Assembly (NCBI RefSeq): GCF_016595495.1
Contig: NZ_JAENIM010000022.1
Coordinates: 1-64,000, forward strand
Length of the DNA stretch: 64,000 bases
Direction: 5' to 3'
Source: Persicirhabdus sediminis
GTDB lineage: Bacteria; Verrucomicrobiota; Verrucomicrobiia; Verrucomicrobiales; Akkermansiaceae
A model generated the notes under the pieces. It searched no databases, had not been told where the DNA came from, and was given only the letters and a program-made list of their open reading frames with translations. The number at the start of each line of letters is the position of its first letter. The stretch's first letter is position 1. This document shows positions 10,601-61,474 of this stretch, piece after piece. The translations under genes were made by a program, and so were the position numbers.

Positions 10601-11715
10601 CCTTGCGGGCTGAAGCACATGCCGCATGGGCCGTATTCTTCGCCAGCTAGATTTGCCCAATCCATGATCGCGGTGATATCAGCTGAGCTGATAGAGCCAA
10701 TCAGGTTCTCCCTGATGTCGCGGATCTCGATGCTATCGCTGAGTCTATCAGCCGCAGCATAGTGACCTGCTACCTGAGAGCTAGCTACCAAGCTAGATGA
10801 GCCAGAACCAAAGCTCAAACTGCTCTGGCTAACATTCCCATTACCAGCGCCGGCACTGGTAGTGATCTGCAATGTCGCTTGCGTGCTGAGGCCATCTTGA
10901 TCTGCAACCTGCACGGTAAAACTTCCCAGCCCAAGGTCAGAGCTATTAGGAGTTCCAGATAGAGAGCCATCGGCAGCTACAGCCAGCCAGCTAGGGCCGC
11001 TGATTTTGCTAAATGTCAGTGTATCTCCTGCATTGGGATCGCTAGCTGAGGCGGCTAGTGAACCCGAGTATTCGACGTATTCTTCAGCACCAGCTAGGGT
11101 GAGTGGATCTGAGCTGAATGTTGGCGCTTCATTGACTTCCGCTAGATCACCTTCGATGAGCACGTCATCAATGTAAACTAAGTCTGCATTTCCCGATGCC
11201 TGACAGATGAAGCGAATCTTCATATTAGACGGCAATGCGTAAGTGGCGCTGTCAATTTCAATGACCTGGTTTTGCAGAGCATTCTCAACCAGATTGGCTC
11301 CATCAGCCCAAGTTTGCACGGTGACCCACTGGCCACCATCCCAATATTGCAACCAGAACCCTTCGCCCGCTTCCATCTTGCGAGCGTAATAGCTGAAGCT
11401 CACACGCACCGATTGATAGACACTGGCGTCAAAACTATTAGTCAGGCTAACTGCTGATGCATCACCGCTATCATCTCTAATCAAAACAGCATTGCTACCA
11501 CTAGCTGCATAATTCGTTCCGGTATAGAGGCTGCAATCGCCGCCGCCGTCTGTGTACGTTCCGAAACCAGATTCAAAACCTTCTGGTCCCGTGATTGTTT
11601 GCCACGATTGTGCCGAGGCACTCGCGTATATTGCAAACAACATTATAGATGTCGATTTTGCAAATGATCTGCAAATCGAACCTTTCAAATGTAATTCCCC
11701 TGTTTGTTTTTTCAT
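7615..11715 (-). CDS. Very large secreted multidomain protein with Ig-like, propeller-like and carbohydrate-binding-like regions
   Basis: The 1366-residue product begins with a signal peptide ending near YASASAQ. The order of regions is: a jelly-roll-like domain at about 37-190 (FESGFGTYTDGGGDCSLYTG); one Ig/cadherin-like putative repeat at about 193-288 (GDTLTFSKISGPSWLAVAAD, then GSLSGTPNSSDLG); a beta-propeller-like region at about 300-600; a helix-rich block at about 600-990 resembling alpha/alpha-toroid glycan-active enzymes (STNESWIMVDLAAAQDP, HPGDIIHFPAVVGFGQHWIS); and two C-terminal CBM-like modules (NGDCEDGYTSWTQHG, TNGDFESGLTNWSKLSG). No certain catalytic residues can be named. The likely role is binding or degrading polysaccharide outside the cell. 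It has no PEP-CTERM or obvious type IX tail. It stands alone between two terminators. Confidence 0.82.
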   Translation of the reverse strand: MKKQTGELHLKGSICRSFAKSTSIMLFAIYASASAQSWQTITGPEGFESGFGTYTDGGGDCSLYTGTNYAASGSNAVLIRDDSGDASAVSLTNSFDASVYQSVRVSFSYYARKMEAGEGFWLQYWDGGQWVTVQTWADGANLVENALQNQVIEIDSATYALPSNMKIRFICQASGNADLVYIDDVLIEGDLAEVNEAPTFSSDPLTLAGAEEYVEYSGSLAASASDPNAGDTLTFSKISGPSWLAVAADGSLSGTPNSSDLGLGSFTVQVADQDGLSTQATLQITTSAGAGNGNVSQSSLSFGSGSSSLVASSQVAGHYAAADRLSDSIEIRDIRENLIGSISSADITAIMDWANLAGEEYGPCGMCFSPQGRQLFISVCSSAGNVADKDAVLAYNINTKELRLFDRLRIEDVMGSAKTYGMAYYKGELFVGTDSGLQRYIAEKNTASAEPYETVVPGDSSEITGIAVDMIDQTLYVATAGSIYSADPAGALSLSSVASASGIKDISYGRTYGGPATEGLMVLIDHGNYDELKIAQKADLHAGGGATLQHYSYADEISDISATACGRMMVASNGVSLMADDSDTRLSFDDWVQDEFDQYVQAVKTTMWRDNLVPEGFNTRKIVQAGNNLDSSIDIDTAGWAMYTMLAAHLVNGDSDAEGYIEKMLQRNAGAHPDGLGGVKTVDGVLYDTYDSAGNVTATAATLYSQMKILPAAYKATELFPANQNIADYKEYFRSIMKRAGDSVNSNYAITWKNDDYGPLNNNNLSTNESWIMVDLAAAQDPLATSDYENYLYKRSDIDEYDYYLADEPTLKASHAAFVVLGGAMILNQHQDEASWLVEHDNYYSTSMAEGDDMGAPYFTAFSAGNNPWMTGNYYNDGPSDHPGDIIHFPAVVGFGQHWISPVVGGYLAYRDGLRQEMQGASGDSNFHLLTRKSMLDDSYVMGSVGIADFWFGLIGLGEVLHPGLTDTLGNEFFVQTPTSEVNANGNTVLNFSKITPRRILGSDDGGQTWTSYGFQHTPFVFDDGVSHSSYAVEDPEGELIEVANGDCEDGYTSWTQHGSYLYYQPKVAGVSIHGRSLEIRTNTSTQGDSASISNTIDVSNDFADTQYIVRADAKSHFANPTGIAYLVVDWDDDADPADDAVISSQSSVNQVDLNNLRDELVVNAQRPANATHMHVHFVVEQGQNPVYHRYIVDNVSVVRLGAEKPLTNGDFESGLTNWSKLSGAYVSTTTDPAKVINGSQSAIVSLSPSDVGIQAGLNRTFDLSSDADGTRYIFRMNVRALNMADDSDFNVRVECYDSAGDLVITKSDVGDCLPGHDGEIALTMRKRPEYDFLKVKVRFKRGSSNTTTTEEIIVDDFSWHKEKIF

Positions 11716-11885
11716 GGCTTGTGTGTTGCAAGGCCCATGAACACATTTCGGTAGATACTGAAATGCAAGCCTTCAATACAAGATGTTCCAAAGTATTGCA
11801 AAAACCTCACACACAACTCTTTAACTTATCATACAAGGATCGATATAGCCTGCTAGAAAATCGGACGCATCCCTTGTCACACCAA

Positions 11886-33862: not shown

Positions 33863-35374
33863 TTACATGCTTTGCGGTTCCAGATCCGCAGTTCTGTGAA
33901 TGCCACGAGTAAGGCGCATGACGATGCCGACAATGGCGAGCAATCCTAAGCTACCCATCGTTAGGGCGTAATCTTCACACTGCAGGATAATATAAAAGTA
34001 GCTGTATAATGCAGCTAACATGCCAGCTAAAGCTATCGTCATAGAGCGATTGCGCACGATGCTAGACACATAACTAACCACCATCGATGAGATTAAAATT
34101 GCGGCGATAAAGTAGGCGCCACCAAAGGCGATTTGTTCAGCTAGAGAAATGAGCAGCAGATAAAAGATCACCATCGATACCCCTACCATCAAGTATTGCA
34201 GCGGGTGGATAGAAACTTTGCTGATCAGCTCAGCGCAGAACATAGCGGCAAAGGTGAAGACGATGAATAAAAAGGCATAGCTAACTAAGCGCATGGATTT
34301 CTGATAGGTAGCGGTAGGCATCATCAACCTGACCCCAAAAGCATCCTGTGAGATATTTCTGGTGCTGTCGGTCCAAATTTGCGGAAACCCACGGTTCAGG
34401 CTGGAGACATTCCACTGAGCGGAAAATCCCTGATCACTAAGCTCACGCTGGCTAGGTAAAAAGTTGCCAGTAAAGCTTGGCGAATCCCAGCTGGAGCTCA
34501 GTTTGATTTGGTTATTTTTTCCAACAGGCACCACATTGAGCCCGTCGCTGCCGCGTAGCTGGAGCTGTAGAGCAAAGGCGTAATCCTTTTTCTCGGCGTC
34601 TAATTTCACTGGGCTAGCGAGCTGACATTTACCGGCAAATCTAGCATGGCTGTAGCTATCTAATAAACTCTCCGCACCATCAAAAACCACAGCCTCGGCA
34701 GCTTGTACGCCCTTCAGGTCGCTCAGCTCTAGCACTAACTCAGCTTGCTCCCACAGCAGGAAAGATTCATCAATGCCGCTGTCTGCTAGCTTGGATAAAT
34801 CAAAATCGCCGCGCATCGTTAGCCCCGCCGAATACAATACGGCTTCAAAGATTCCTCGATAGCGAACTTCGTGATCTAGCTGCCCCGCTATATCTAGCTG
34901 GTTAGGGAAAACATAGATGGCTCCTTCTTGCTTATTAGACTGTCCCCGATGATCCATTTTCTGCTTCAGATAGGGAATGCGCAGGTATGGTCCTGCGATA
35001 GTTTGCTCTTCGCCCCATTTATCATTAATTTCCCTAACGACATGATCGCGACGCGTTTCACGTTCCTCCATGAGCCCCTTGACCATGCTAGCTGGCAGAA
35101 GAAGAACCAAGGCCATCACACCCATCAAGAAGATCTTCGAGCCCATCGTCGCCCCGCGATACATCTTGTTGACGATACTGCCGCCAGTCTTCAAGCTTTC
35201 CCCAATACTCGGCTCAGCTGATTTCTCTATGCGCGGCAGAACTTTAGCTGAATCCCCAACAGCTGGAGTTGTTCCAGCTACAGGTGTAGCCTTAGCTGGC
35301 ACTTCTGGTTTAGCTGGCTCGGCGTCTTGCGGTCCAGATCCATTGTCTTCGGGCTTAGCTGTTGGATCTTCCAC
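33863..35374 (-). CDS. creD: Inner-membrane protein CreD
   Basis: CreD (503 residues) is a polytopic membrane protein linked to envelope integrity and, in some species, to CreBC-controlled beta-lactam tolerance. The family blocks are a first helix followed by GLMEERETRRDHVVREINDK, then WGEEQTIAGPYLRIPY, a periplasmic beta-rich domain, and six or so C-terminal helices with MRLVSYAFLFIVFTFAAMFC and KVSIHPLQYLMVG. The frame has an ATG at 35419, but a perfect AAAGGAG lies just upstream of the in-frame GTG at 35374, so I use the GTG. The first 70 residues are a Pro/Ala-rich cytosolic extension. creBC is not adjacent. Confidence 0.9.
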   Translation of the reverse strand: MEDPTAKPEDNGSGPQDAEPAKPEVPAKATPVAGTTPAVGDSAKVLPRIEKSAEPSIGESLKTGGSIVNKMYRGATMGSKIFLMGVMALVLLLPASMVKGLMEERETRRDHVVREINDKWGEEQTIAGPYLRIPYLKQKMDHRGQSNKQEGAIYVFPNQLDIAGQLDHEVRYRGIFEAVLYSAGLTMRGDFDLSKLADSGIDESFLLWEQAELVLELSDLKGVQAAEAVVFDGAESLLDSYSHARFAGKCQLASPVKLDAEKKDYAFALQLQLRGSDGLNVVPVGKNNQIKLSSSWDSPSFTGNFLPSQRELSDQGFSAQWNVSSLNRGFPQIWTDSTRNISQDAFGVRLMMPTATYQKSMRLVSYAFLFIVFTFAAMFCAELISKVSIHPLQYLMVGVSMVIFYLLLISLAEQIAFGGAYFIAAILISSMVVSYVSSIVRNRSMTIALAGMLAALYSYFYIILQCEDYALTMGSLGLLAIVGIVMRLTRGIHRTADLEPQSM

Positions 35375-35380
35375 GCGCGT

Positions 35381-35387
35381 CTCCTTT
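35381..35387 (-). promoter_or_regulatory. Shine-Dalgarno sequence deciding the creD start
   Basis: AAAGGAG (plus-strand CTCCTTT) lies six bases from a GTG at 35374, whereas the upstream ATG at 35419 has no such site. Confidence 0.75.
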
Positions 35388-35604
35388 CTGGTAATTTTCA
35401 CTCGCAGCGGCCGCATCATTTTGCTGGCCTAAGCGGATGGCTGAAACTTCAAATGCTTGTGAACAAATCACAAAAGCAATCAAGCCGGCGGCTGATTTGA
35501 ATCCTGTTATCTTCATGACCCCTGCAGCCTGATACGGCTGTGTGAATCCATGATGAAGGGTTTGTGAAATCAGCGTGAAGATTTGGCTAAAAGAGACTGA
35601 GCAC

Positions 35605-57333: not shown

Positions 57334-57882
57334 ATGTACTGGAAAACTGTCAGTCTCACGGGAGCTCTTGCTCTTAGCCTCCTCACCACCTCCTGCTACT
57401 ACGATCCATACGGCTACGGCACCACCGTCAATGCCGTGCCAGCTGGCTCAGTTGCAGTTACCATTGGTGGACTCAGCTACTGGCATTACCATGGCCATTA
57501 TTATCGCTACTACGGAGGCCGCTACGTTTACTGTCGCCCACCGCATGGCCACAGACCTCCACCTACGAGACCACCTCACCACAGGCCAAAACCTGAGCAG
57601 CCGATTTACCGACCAGACAGACCGGGGTCAAATCGACCAACCCAGCTGCCAGCCAATCAAAGACCGACAACTAGGCCATCCACTCGCCCGAGTACACCAA
57701 CAACGACTCGCCCGAGCACACGCCCAAGTACGCCAACCACCAGGCCGAGCACTCCGACTACGCGACCAAGTACTCCAATGACTCGCCCAAGTACCCCAAG
57801 CTCTAGACCAGCCAGCCGCCCAAGCACGCCAGCACCGCGCCCAATGCCCAGCAGCTCAGGGGGCAGAACTCGTTCGCGCTAA
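57334..57882 (+). CDS. Lipoprotein with (T)RPSTP repeats
   Basis: The 182-residue protein has a lipoprotein signal (TGALALSLLTTSC, acceptor Cys21), a His/Tyr-rich section (YYDPYGYG, WHYHGHYYRYYGGRYVY) and a low-complexity second half made of Arg-Pro-Ser-Thr-Pro units (for example TTRPSTPTTRPSTPMTRPST). The repeats look wall- or polysaccharide-binding, positively charged and disordered. The nucleotide repeats code an exact hexamer-like periodicity, so copy number is likely variable between strains. It is divergent from the GYF_2 gene. Confidence 0.85.
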   Translation: MYWKTVSLTGALALSLLTTSCYYDPYGYGTTVNAVPAGSVAVTIGGLSYWHYHGHYYRYYGGRYVYCRPPHGHRPPPTRPPHHRPKPEQPIYRPDRPGSNRPTQLPANQRPTTRPSTRPSTPTTTRPSTRPSTPTTRPSTPTTRPSTPMTRPSTPSSRPASRPSTPAPRPMPSSSGGRTRSR

Positions 57883-58943: not shown

Positions 58944-58959
58944 TGGCACGAGATATGCT
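58944..58959 (+). promoter_or_regulatory. Sigma-54 (RpoN) promoter of the amt operon
   Basis: TGGCACGAGATATGCT matches the sigma-54 consensus TGGCACG-N4-TTGCW with GG and GC at the required 10-bp spacing. Only one position (T to A at -14) differs. Transcription would start near 58970, about 45 bp before the first gene. Sigma-54 with NtrC control is the usual regulation of amt operons, so position and product agree. Confidence 0.8.
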
Positions 58960-58967
58960 CCCGCGTT

Positions 58968-58983
58968 CTTCGCACCCGCGAAG
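58968..58983 (+). promoter_or_regulatory. Hairpin at the expected 5' end of the amt transcript
   Basis: CTTCGC-ACCC-GCGAAG forms a perfect 6-bp stem with a 4-nt loop at or just after the predicted start of the sigma-54 transcript. It could stabilise the messenger 5' end. Confidence 0.4.
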
Positions 58984-59012
58984 CAAACGTACTAACACAT
59001 ATCTCAACACAT

Positions 59013-59309
59013 ATGACCGGAACTGACTATTTCATAAAAAAAGGTGAGTCTATCATCTCCACCAATGGTGGCGGCGACAGCCAACTCTTTGAAGATGAGA
59101 GTAAATTCACATTTTACTACGCCAACGAGTTGGCTCATTTGCTAGACGCTGGCCAGCCCGAGTCAGCAATCATCAAAGAAGACGAACGGCTCATTGCCAT
59201 CCACTATGCAGACAAGTGGGACCCCGAAACCAAAAACCTGCGCGGACTTATCAGCAATAGCAATACCAGCCTGAGCAAAGCAATGAGTGAACTTAGCATG
59301 GAATCCTAA
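59013..59309 (+). CDS. Unknown small protein of the amt operon
   Basis: The 98-residue cytosolic protein has no recognised family. It is acidic (FEDESKFTFYYANELAHLLD, IIKEDERLIAIHYADKWDPE) with no signal or membrane helix. It is the first gene after the sigma-54 promoter and ends 2 bp before the next gene, which links it to nitrogen response. Confidence 0.72.
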   Translation: MTGTDYFIKKGESIISTNGGGDSQLFEDESKFTFYYANELAHLLDAGQPESAIIKEDERLIAIHYADKWDPETKNLRGLISNSNTSLSKAMSELSMES

Positions 59310-59311
59310 CA

Positions 59312-60058
59312 ATGAACGTCCCAAACACAAAAGACCTTCCCTATAATACCTCTATTGCCCTCATGGAGTTGTGCAAAAAAGTTGGCGCACAATACAGCTG
59401 GAACCAACAAGGTGGCGTACTGATAGAGACCAACTACCACAAATCCGAAGAGCTAATCGAAAGAGTCATCACCATGACTAACAACATGGTGACATCCTAT
59501 AAACAAGTAACCCGCGCCCCAAGAGAATTGGTCTTCGGTTTCAGCAAGCTCAACCTGCTTATTGTTATCGAAGAAGAAATGCAGGTGACCTTGATCTTCA
59601 ATACCGACATCGAACAAATCGACAAAGTAGTCAGGCTTGTCAGAGAGTTTATCGCTAATGATCTCAAACAATCCGCTGAAAAATCACCTGAGAAACCAGC
59701 GTGGCAAGAGGACATTCAGCCAATCGACCTACCTGAGCTAGCTGAGCCAACTAATCTAGCTGAAGCATCAACAGAACTACAAGACACACAGTCTAAGGAA
59801 GACTCAGAAGAGCCAGCCATCAGTTGGAGCACCCTAGAGCCTGAAATTCAATTACTGCTCAGCAGGGTCATGAATTCCGCTCAAGCTGATAAACTGATCA
59901 CGCGGCAAATTCAGAAGAATACTAACGAACAAGGCGAACTCACCGTAGACGCCGACGCCCTAGCCTACCAAATCATTGACTGCGTCCCTCATAAAGGACG
60001 CCGCAAGGCTCTAAACTCTGAGTTTTCAGACATTCTATCTACCTTCACCCAACACTAA
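59312..60058 (+). CDS. Unknown protein of the amt operon, N-terminus Roadblock/LC7-like
   Basis: In the 248-residue protein the first 120 residues have the alternation and glycine placement of a Roadblock/LC7 fold (QQGGVLIETNYHKSEELIER, then LVFGFSKLNLLIVIEEEMQV). An acidic linker (130-170) and a helical C-terminal domain (LLSRVMNSAQADKLITRQIQ) follow. Roadblock proteins in bacteria serve as regulators of small GTPases, but no GTPase is adjacent. This fold call is only suggestive. The gene lies 2 bp after the 98-residue gene and 9 bp before amt. Confidence 0.65.
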   Translation: MNVPNTKDLPYNTSIALMELCKKVGAQYSWNQQGGVLIETNYHKSEELIERVITMTNNMVTSYKQVTRAPRELVFGFSKLNLLIVIEEEMQVTLIFNTDIEQIDKVVRLVREFIANDLKQSAEKSPEKPAWQEDIQPIDLPELAEPTNLAEASTELQDTQSKEDSEEPAISWSTLEPEIQLLLSRVMNSAQADKLITRQIQKNTNEQGELTVDADALAYQIIDCVPHKGRRKALNSEFSDILSTFTQH

Positions 60059-60067
60059 CAAATACAC

Positions 60068-61417
60068 ATGAAACAACATCTCACCCTATTAGGAGCGCTG
60101 GTATGCTTCTTTTTACTTAGCATTTCATCCAACGCCGCGGCAGGCGATATCCAATCAGCCCAATCCGCTGTCGGTCCATCGACTGAGCAGCTAGAGTCAG
60201 ACCTCAATACCACCTTTGTTCTGATCTCAGCGGCTCTTGTATTTTTTATGCAAGCAGGTTTCTGTTTGTTGGAGCTCGGCTGTGTTAGGGCAAAAAACTG
60301 CCTCAATGTAGTGATGAAAAATGCAGTTGATTTCTGCATCGCCATGATCTGCTTCCTGTTTGTTGGATTTGGCCTCATGTTTGGCGCCACAGCTATGGGC
60401 CTGCTAGGTACTGAAATCACCTGGCTATCCACATTTAATGGCGATTCTCAGCTCTGGGTATTCTGGATCTTCCAAGCAGTTTTTGTAGCGACAGCCGCGA
60501 CTATTACCTCTGGAGCCATGGCTGAAAGAACAACCTTTATCGGCTACTGCGCCTACACCGTGCTTATTTCTGGCATCATCTATCCAATTCTCGGTCACTG
60601 GAGTTGGGGCAGCTTTGCTGGCGACTACGCACCTGGATTTGGCGGCACTTCAGGGTGGTTAGAATCTCTCGGATTCAGCGACTTTGCAGGCTCCACAGTG
60701 GTTCACTCTATCGGCGGAGCCTGTGCTCTAGCAGGCGTACTCGTGATTGGCCCACGTAAGGGACGCTTTGCGAAAAATGGCGATCCATTGCTCATCTCAG
60801 GTCACAACATTCCTCTTGTCGCCCTCGGAACTTTCATCCTTTGTTTTGGTTGGTTCGGGTTCAACTGTGGATCTAACCTAGCAGCTGGAAATGAAATTGG
60901 CCGCATCGCCGTAAATACAATGGTTGCAGCTGCCTCGGGTGGTTTGCTAGGACTAGCAGCTTTCTGGATTCGCGACGGACGCCCAGAACCATTAAGCACC
61001 ATGAATGGTATCCTCGGTGGCCTAGTAGCGATAACCGCTTGTTGTAATGTGGTCACTCCAGCCAGCGCTGTAATCATCGGCGCCATTGCCGGAGTCGTTA
61101 GTACATTAGGTTCTGAGCTCTTGCTCAAATTCAAGATTGATGACGTCGTTGGCGCCATTCCTGTACACCTCTTCAACGGCATCTGGGGCACCCTCAGTGT
61201 AGCCTTGTTCAACGAGGCTGGTTTTGCGGGCAAGCAGTTAGGCGTTCAAGCTCTTGGAGCTTTCAGCACCAGCATCGCCGCCTTTGTCGCCGCGTTCATT
61301 GGCTTCAAAATCATCCATGCAACCATCGGTCTGCGAGCTAGTGAAGAAGAAGAGGAAGACGGCCTCGATTTCTCCGAGCATGCATCCAACGCCTATCCTG
61401 ACTTCCGCTCAGAATAG
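60068..61417 (+). CDS. amt: Ammonium transporter Amt
   Basis: Amt (449 residues) is a trimeric channel for ammonium. It has a signal peptide (near SSNAAAG) and eleven membrane helices. The family blocks are AALVFFMQAGFCLLELGCVR, GAMAERTTFIGYCAYTVLI, GSTVVHSIGGACALAG with the first pore His, GWFGFNCGSNLA and PVHLFNGIWGTLSVALFNEA with the second pore His. A C-terminal acidic tail ends it. glnK, normally next to amt, is absent; two unknown genes lie upstream instead. A strong terminator follows. Confidence 0.95.
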   Translation: MKQHLTLLGALVCFFLLSISSNAAAGDIQSAQSAVGPSTEQLESDLNTTFVLISAALVFFMQAGFCLLELGCVRAKNCLNVVMKNAVDFCIAMICFLFVGFGLMFGATAMGLLGTEITWLSTFNGDSQLWVFWIFQAVFVATAATITSGAMAERTTFIGYCAYTVLISGIIYPILGHWSWGSFAGDYAPGFGGTSGWLESLGFSDFAGSTVVHSIGGACALAGVLVIGPRKGRFAKNGDPLLISGHNIPLVALGTFILCFGWFGFNCGSNLAAGNEIGRIAVNTMVAAASGGLLGLAAFWIRDGRPEPLSTMNGILGGLVAITACCNVVTPASAVIIGAIAGVVSTLGSELLLKFKIDDVVGAIPVHLFNGIWGTLSVALFNEAGFAGKQLGVQALGAFSTSIAAFVAAFIGFKIIHATIGLRASEEEEEDGLDFSEHASNAYPDFRSE

Positions 61418-61441: not shown

Positions 61442-61474
61442 AAGCTTTAACGCCCAGTGCGTTAAAGCTTTTTT
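61442..61474 (+). terminator. Intrinsic terminator of the amt operon
   Basis: AAGCTTTAACGC (61442-61453) pairs perfectly with GCGTTAAAGCTT (61459-61470), with a 5-nt loop and a T-run. Confidence 0.95.

Follow-up and report, generated by a model that had tools for sequence, protein, structure and literature searches.

To our knowledge, the regulation of bacterial ammonium channels (Amt) is understood almost wholly via PII proteins (GlnK), and the exceptions are one archaeal adaptor and the fused kinases. The operon that we describe here was found in a window of 64,000 nucleotides (the whole stretch of DNA that was analysed), and resembles the glnK-amtB operon in that small cytoplasmic proteins are encoded directly upstream of amt, apparently under sigma-54 nitrogen control. 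As in GlnK-AmtB, the likely target of its two upstream products, named A and B in this work, is the cytoplasmic face of the channel together with its tail. However, A and B are not PII proteins; they are two in number, one of them has a Roadblock domain, and the PII gene lies elsewhere in the genome. In Methanosarcina mazei, the 61-residue protein sP36 brings GlnK to AmtB1 (PMC10714827). A-B, as proposed here, would be alike in that a non-PII small protein acts on an ammonium transporter, but sP36 showed no sequence relation to either protein, and a Roadblock domain is present in B. The gene of the Amt-histidine kinase fusion Ks-Amt5 also has no adjoining glnK (PMC5764959). Such fusions are a possible, weakly supported sister clade of the operon's Amt, with which they have the residues beside the second pore histidine in common. 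Unlike them, the Amt of the operon carries no fused kinase and has the separate genes A and B upstream.

The Roadblock fold is found in nutrient- and polarity-signalling complexes. MglB and Ragulator (MP1-p14, LAMTOR) share this Roadblock/LC7 fold with B, and Ragulator, too, is the neighbour of a transceptor for nutrients, SLC38A9 (entry 6wj2, found among the same structure matches). The differences from these systems are a sequence identity of only ~8–10%, an operon that holds no GTPase gene, the extra four-helix domain, and the link to an ammonium channel in the case of B.

The operon was not found in the open-licence papers searched on Roadblock together with ammonium transporter, nor in those on Verrucomicrobia together with sigma-54/RpoN. 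The observation that, in one bacterial order, a whole branch of Amt stands almost always right behind A-B points to an undescribed control or read-out of ammonium uptake, and the new element is best read as an operon-encoded cytoplasmic Amt partner made of a Roadblock pair, as we propose below. An Amt clade with such a pair would add a separate control principle as well as a bacterial Roadblock partner for a transporter. Whether A-B binds the altered Amt tail, and whether it gates or signals, is directly testable in the culturable and harmless genera Prosthecobacter and Brevifollis.

Operon layout, sigma-54 promoter and PII gene

The operon reads, from 5' to 3', sigma-54 site, gene A, gene B, amt and terminator (Table 1). 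An earlier note on this DNA had described a run of three genes spaced by 2 and 9 bp, and our coordinates agree with it (2 bp between A and B, 9 bp between B and amt); likewise, its acidic 98-residue protein is our A, with a computed pI of 4.6. The end of trmD lies 270 bp 5' of the sigma-54 element. For the terminator, the chance level in the region is 3.0 ± 2.1, and the one listed is the longest stem there, right behind the stop codon. Between the neighbours of the operon, we have also observed a 182-aa ORF (57334–57882 of the window) with a repetitive Thr/Arg/Pro/Ser-rich tail (RPSTPTTRPSTP...).

Table 1 Features of the A-B-amt operon, in positions of the window.
Feature	Position	Strand	Description
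Sigma-54 (RpoN) -24/-12 element	58944..58959	+	TGGCACG-N4-ATGCT, TGGCACGAGATATGCT; top matrix site of the window; equivalents before orthologous operons of Verrucomicrobiaceae
Gene A	59013..59309	+	98 aa; family of >70 members; model b-b-a-b-b-b-a, Roadblock-like order without the first helix, low confidence
Gene B	59312..60058	+	248 aa; Roadblock/LC7 domain, linker and four-helix domain
B residues 1–123	59312..59680	+	Roadblock/LC7 domain (a-b-b-a-b-b-b-a); Foldseek probability 1.00; Z 12.6 to MglB 6hjm
B residues 124–165	59681..59806	+	Acidic linker, pI 4.05; low confidence in the model
B residues 166–248	59807..60055	+	Four-helix domain; pLDDT mostly 89–96; no Pfam family
amt	60068..61417	+	449 aa ammonium transporter, B-linked clade
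Amt residues 432–446	61361..61405	+	Clade-specific cytoplasmic tail GLDFSEHASNAYPDF, compared with other Amts
Intrinsic terminator	61442..61470	+	3' of amt; 12-bp stem, T run

The sigma-54 element has GG at -24, GC at -12 and the right spacing. It differs in one base from TGGCACG-N4-TTGCW, and its weight-matrix score of 17.8 is the highest in the window. The sequence motif alone is not beyond chance: allowing for a single mismatch, the window has 2 matches, where 3.5 would be expected. As one-mismatch sites are as many by chance, we rejected motif rarity as promoter evidence and used conservation instead. Of 47 amt-linked loci, among which some genomes are represented twice, 33 have TGGCAYR-N4-NTGCT ahead of gene A (score of at least 13, each p ≤ 0.01 against shuffles), and the same scan gave a site before gene A' in 0 of 24 single-domain paralogous pairs. 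Judged from these sequence comparisons, the position and the conservation of the element are beyond chance, which bears out the one-mismatch, correctly spaced sigma-54 promoter of the earlier note. In relatives, the first T of TTGC is often another base, so the mismatch at this place is the local norm. The sigma-54-like sites that rank second and third in the window are located at 11715–11730 (+) and 34025–34010 (-); the latter lies inside an ORF (33863–35419) and is probably due to chance.

In the same genome, strong sigma-54 sites occur just upstream of other nitrogen genes, namely the amt on contig C21 (19.3), the amt on contig C37 (17.2) and the sole PII gene (19.8), where the scanned stretches were picked for the nitrogen genes in them. 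The genome has one RpoN gene and four full sigma-54 activators, one of them in an NtrBC-like kinase-regulator pair. Taken with RpoN and the NtrBC-like activators, the sites before the other amt and PII genes favour a nitrogen-regulated operon. Outside Verrucomicrobiaceae, many B-linked operons have no sigma-54 site, the closest relative (L162) included, and this patchiness counts against a nitrogen-regulated A-B-amt operon, which we still take as the best explanation. Among the amt genes of the order without B linkage, 42 of 65 have a sigma-54 site (score of at least 15), so the promoter of the operon is not special. It appears to be a genuine promoter, of the kind usual for amt genes in this order.

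The genome contains three amt genes (on C21, C22 and C37) and a single PII gene on C39, with the T-loop IYRGSEYTVDF. Missing glnK in the amt operon, as pointed out earlier, is correct in that no PII gene lies next to amt. The further wording that two genes stand in place of glnK has to be given up, since the PII gene is found elsewhere with its own sigma-54 site and unlinked PII is the rule in the order: when positions were compared by eye in 57 genomes, PII was present in 54 and beside an amt in one only (G087). As this rule holds whether A-B is present or not, little can be read from the lack of glnK in the operon, and we reject the idea that glnK was lost and replaced. The PII protein of this genome could gate the Amt of the operon, which speaks against A-B as its dedicated partner.

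Fold and distribution of A and B

In the AlphaFold2 model of B, residues 6–123 show the order a-b-b-a-b-b-b-a, followed by a disordered acidic linker and then by a four-helix domain. The Roadblock part aligns in VIA-align with MglB (6hjm_A) at Z 12.6 over 119 residues with an rmsd of 3.4, with archaeal Roadblocks at Z ~12, and with MP1/p14 at Z ~11. The Roadblock-like N-terminus proposed earlier for the 248-residue protein is thus confirmed by the model, Foldseek and VIA-align. B belongs to the Roadblock members by fold only, since its sequence score is under the cut-off of Pfam PF03259 (1 of 19 members at E 0.047), and the PF03259 search of the whole genome gave 0 matches. No family was found for A, B or the C-terminal domain of B in the Pfam, NCBIfam and PDB sequence searches. 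The four-helix domain is kept in amt-linked B and missing from short paralogues, B'. For A, the model has a pLDDT of 67 with the order b-b-a-b-b-b-a and no clear structural match, and the profile comparison of A with B is not significant; on these grounds, A is not accepted as a proven Roadblock protein. A small Ras-like GTPase partner of the MglB type was sought alongside, and no GTPase gene was found in the A-B-amt operons.

Among 387 genomes sampled within the order, 108 encode relatives of B. A sample of 387 genomes from across the phylum, in a search of limited sensitivity, gave 6, all of them members of this order. The relatives are of two kinds, i.e., the full-length two-domain B and the short B', which lacks the four-helix domain. 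Of 69 loci with full-length B, 62 have amt as the next gene in the same direction; leaving out one locus cut by a contig end, this makes 62 of the 68 informative ones, and these loci come from three families of the order. Where the A profile is silent, an ORF of 96–134 aa with the same pattern still lies directly upstream of B. The short B' loci again have A' directly upstream, with no constant third gene. That A' and B' stay paired in this way suggests that A and B work together.

The earlier note had proposed to check whether the pair always accompanies amt, and had named its occurrence elsewhere without amt as a refutation. The accompaniment stands for the 62 of 68 informative loci, and it fails for the short A'-B' pairs, once in the source genome itself, and for six full-length B genes without neighbouring amt in four genomes (G017, G561, G679 and G706). 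We have therefore rejected the strict form of the claim, and the six genes count against reading A-B as a dedicated Amt partner.

Several further arrangements have been observed. The short pair recurs across the order, with A' and B' always together. In the source genome (G000), it is located on contig C39 at ~469.2–470.2 kb (L044:5240–6223), near der and pgsA, with no amt and no sigma-54 site. We considered der and pgsA as functional partners and rejected them, as they adjoin the pair in some genomes only and in the opposite direction. At L142 (G706) and L146 (G679), full-length B occurs in tandem A-B-A-B arrays that have no neighbouring amt and adjoin a LysR-type gene on the other strand; both genomes also have a separate B-amt locus. 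At the contig end of a MAG that has the intact locus L095, an ORF combines the 5' part of A with the 3' part of B (L105:3704–4237), which is either a deletion or an assembly chimera. At L050:4779–6629, a short-type B' lies inside a much longer frame of 616 aa and is possibly fused to another domain.

The B-linked Amt clade

The amt product scores 386 bits with PF00909 and is above the cut-off of TIGR00836, and it keeps the twin His 213/367, Asp205, Trp180, Ser269 and Phe139/265. In a 108-row tree, which covers almost every Amt of the 57 genomes and some further ones, the 42 B-linked Amts make up exactly one clade (SH-aLRT 99), and all 66 others fall outside. A careful 50-row tree gives this clade a support of 100/99. 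As the 42 B-linked Amts are one clade with 0 of the 66 others inside, the partner and the channel have been inherited together. Throughout the clade, Asp205, His213, His367, Trp180 and Ser269 are kept, and the Phe gate nearly always.

Compared with other Amts, the clade has 17 diagnostic positions. For about half of them (T155, F234, R241, Q429, F435, P444 and F446), the inferred topology gives a place in the tail or in a cytoplasmic loop, and the loop positions follow TM3 and TM5, on the cytoplasmic side by known Amt topology. P365 and L368, which flank the second pore histidine, are also diagnostic. The tail of the clade reads GLDF-x-EH-[AS]-x-N-[AS]-Y-[PA]-DF, while that of other Amts reads GLDxxEHG; its conservation is 0.84 against 0.69 in the rest, and GLDF, H438, Y443, D445 and F446 are invariant in the 42 sequences. 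Clade-specific residues occur in any clade, and such residues need not imply a docking site.

Two Amt-PAS-HisKA-HATPase fusions are encoded in genome G104 (L223:1532–4201 and L225:1640–4401), and it is possible that they are ammonium sensor kinases. These fusions are the nearest tree rows to the B-linked clade, with a sister support of 91/57, and against nearly all other Amts they have 6 of the 17 diagnostic residues in common with it (Q62, I79, D88, Y160, P365 and L368). The Amt of the operon has no fused histidine kinase and ends at the tail after 449 aa; the fusions are found in the two G104 loci only.

Proposed role of A-B and alternatives

A different regulatory device for the channel had been suggested earlier. 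A device specific to the channel is plausible, since the pair accompanies amt in 62 of 68 loci and the linked Amts are one clade. A shared transcript alone would not account for so exclusive an association, and on this comparative evidence it is highly probable that A-B and the Amt clade are functionally linked. In our explanation, a nitrogen-regulated (sigma-54) operon would encode both an ammonium channel and a cytoplasmic partner of that channel, made up of two proteins. These proteins, A and B, would form a complex in which the Roadblock domain of B serves as assembly platform, and the four-helix domain of B, on its flexible acidic linker, would dock on the cytoplasmic face of the Amt clade, where the altered C-terminal tail, along with the loops that follow TM3 and TM5, would offer the docking surface. 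Depending on nitrogen status, the binding would then set the channel activity, or link the state of the channel to a protein further downstream. We infer the mutual binding of A and B, the binding of A-B to Amt and the gating by this binding; based on the fold, the linkage and the clade-specific residues, the mechanism as a whole, with A-B docked on the cytoplasmic face, where it either gates the channel or transmits the channel state, seems to us evenly balanced between right and wrong. More tentatively, and with somewhat less confidence, we suggest a control independent of PII, in which a Roadblock-based A-B complex, bound to the cytoplasmic tail in one Amt clade, would either gate the channel or signal its occupancy, as a bacterial counterpart of transceptor plus Ragulator.

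The Amt could also be mainly a receptor (transceptor), with A-B as the output to a GTPase or another cytosolic protein, like the fused histidine kinase. Kinship with the Amt sensor kinases makes such a role possible, as the nearest tree rows are the G104 fusions with their six residues in common, and Roadblock domains elsewhere serve GTPase signalling (MglB, Ragulator). In addition, Ks-Amt5 is a proven Amt sensor kinase with no glnK near its gene (PMC5764959). However, the sister relation to the fusions is the weakly supported one given above, and the operon has no GTPase or kinase gene. The kept pore residues speak against a mere receptor as well, but they are no proof of transport, since Ks-Amt5 has retained the same residues despite its loss of transport (PMC5764959). 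Overall, we regard a receptor of this kind as rather unlikely.

It is still less probable that A-B is a general Roadblock module whose job is unrelated to the channel and which merely travels on the same nitrogen-regulated transcript. The short A'-B' pairs without amt, seen in many genomes and once in the source genome, would fit such a module, as would the six full-length B genes without neighbouring amt, but the B linkage matches one Amt clade (42/42 against 0/66) across three families, and the extra four-helix domain is confined to amt-linked B. Finally, A-B might recruit or block PII at the Amt, as sP36 does for GlnK1/AmtB1 in Methanosarcina mazei. The genome does have a PII, with the T-loop given above and a 19.8-bit sigma-54 site before its gene, an adaptor of the sP36 type is known (PMC10714827), and the clade has an altered Amt tail, the part that becomes ordered upon GlnK binding to AmtB in E. 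coli (PMC10433425). Against this, no relation of A or B to sP36 in sequence or fold was seen in a comparison of limited depth, and nothing ties PII to the Amt of the operon in particular, so that we consider an adaptor for PII quite improbable. The preferred reading remains that of A-B as the channel's own cytoplasmic partner.

Apart from the operon, other sigma-54 units have been observed in the source genome. On contig C39 at ~473.4 kb (L044:9432 onwards), a sigma-54 site scoring 18.6 is followed by a stretch without a long ORF, which holds a 31-codon ORF (MNNNKLSALAAIDYDV...) and then a T-rich stretch; this unit is possibly a nitrogen-regulated small RNA or small protein. On contig C37, a porin-like gene (L064:3701–4501) with its own sigma-54 site (18.4) is divergent from the third amt, and it possibly provides an outer-membrane entry route for ammonium within the same regulon.
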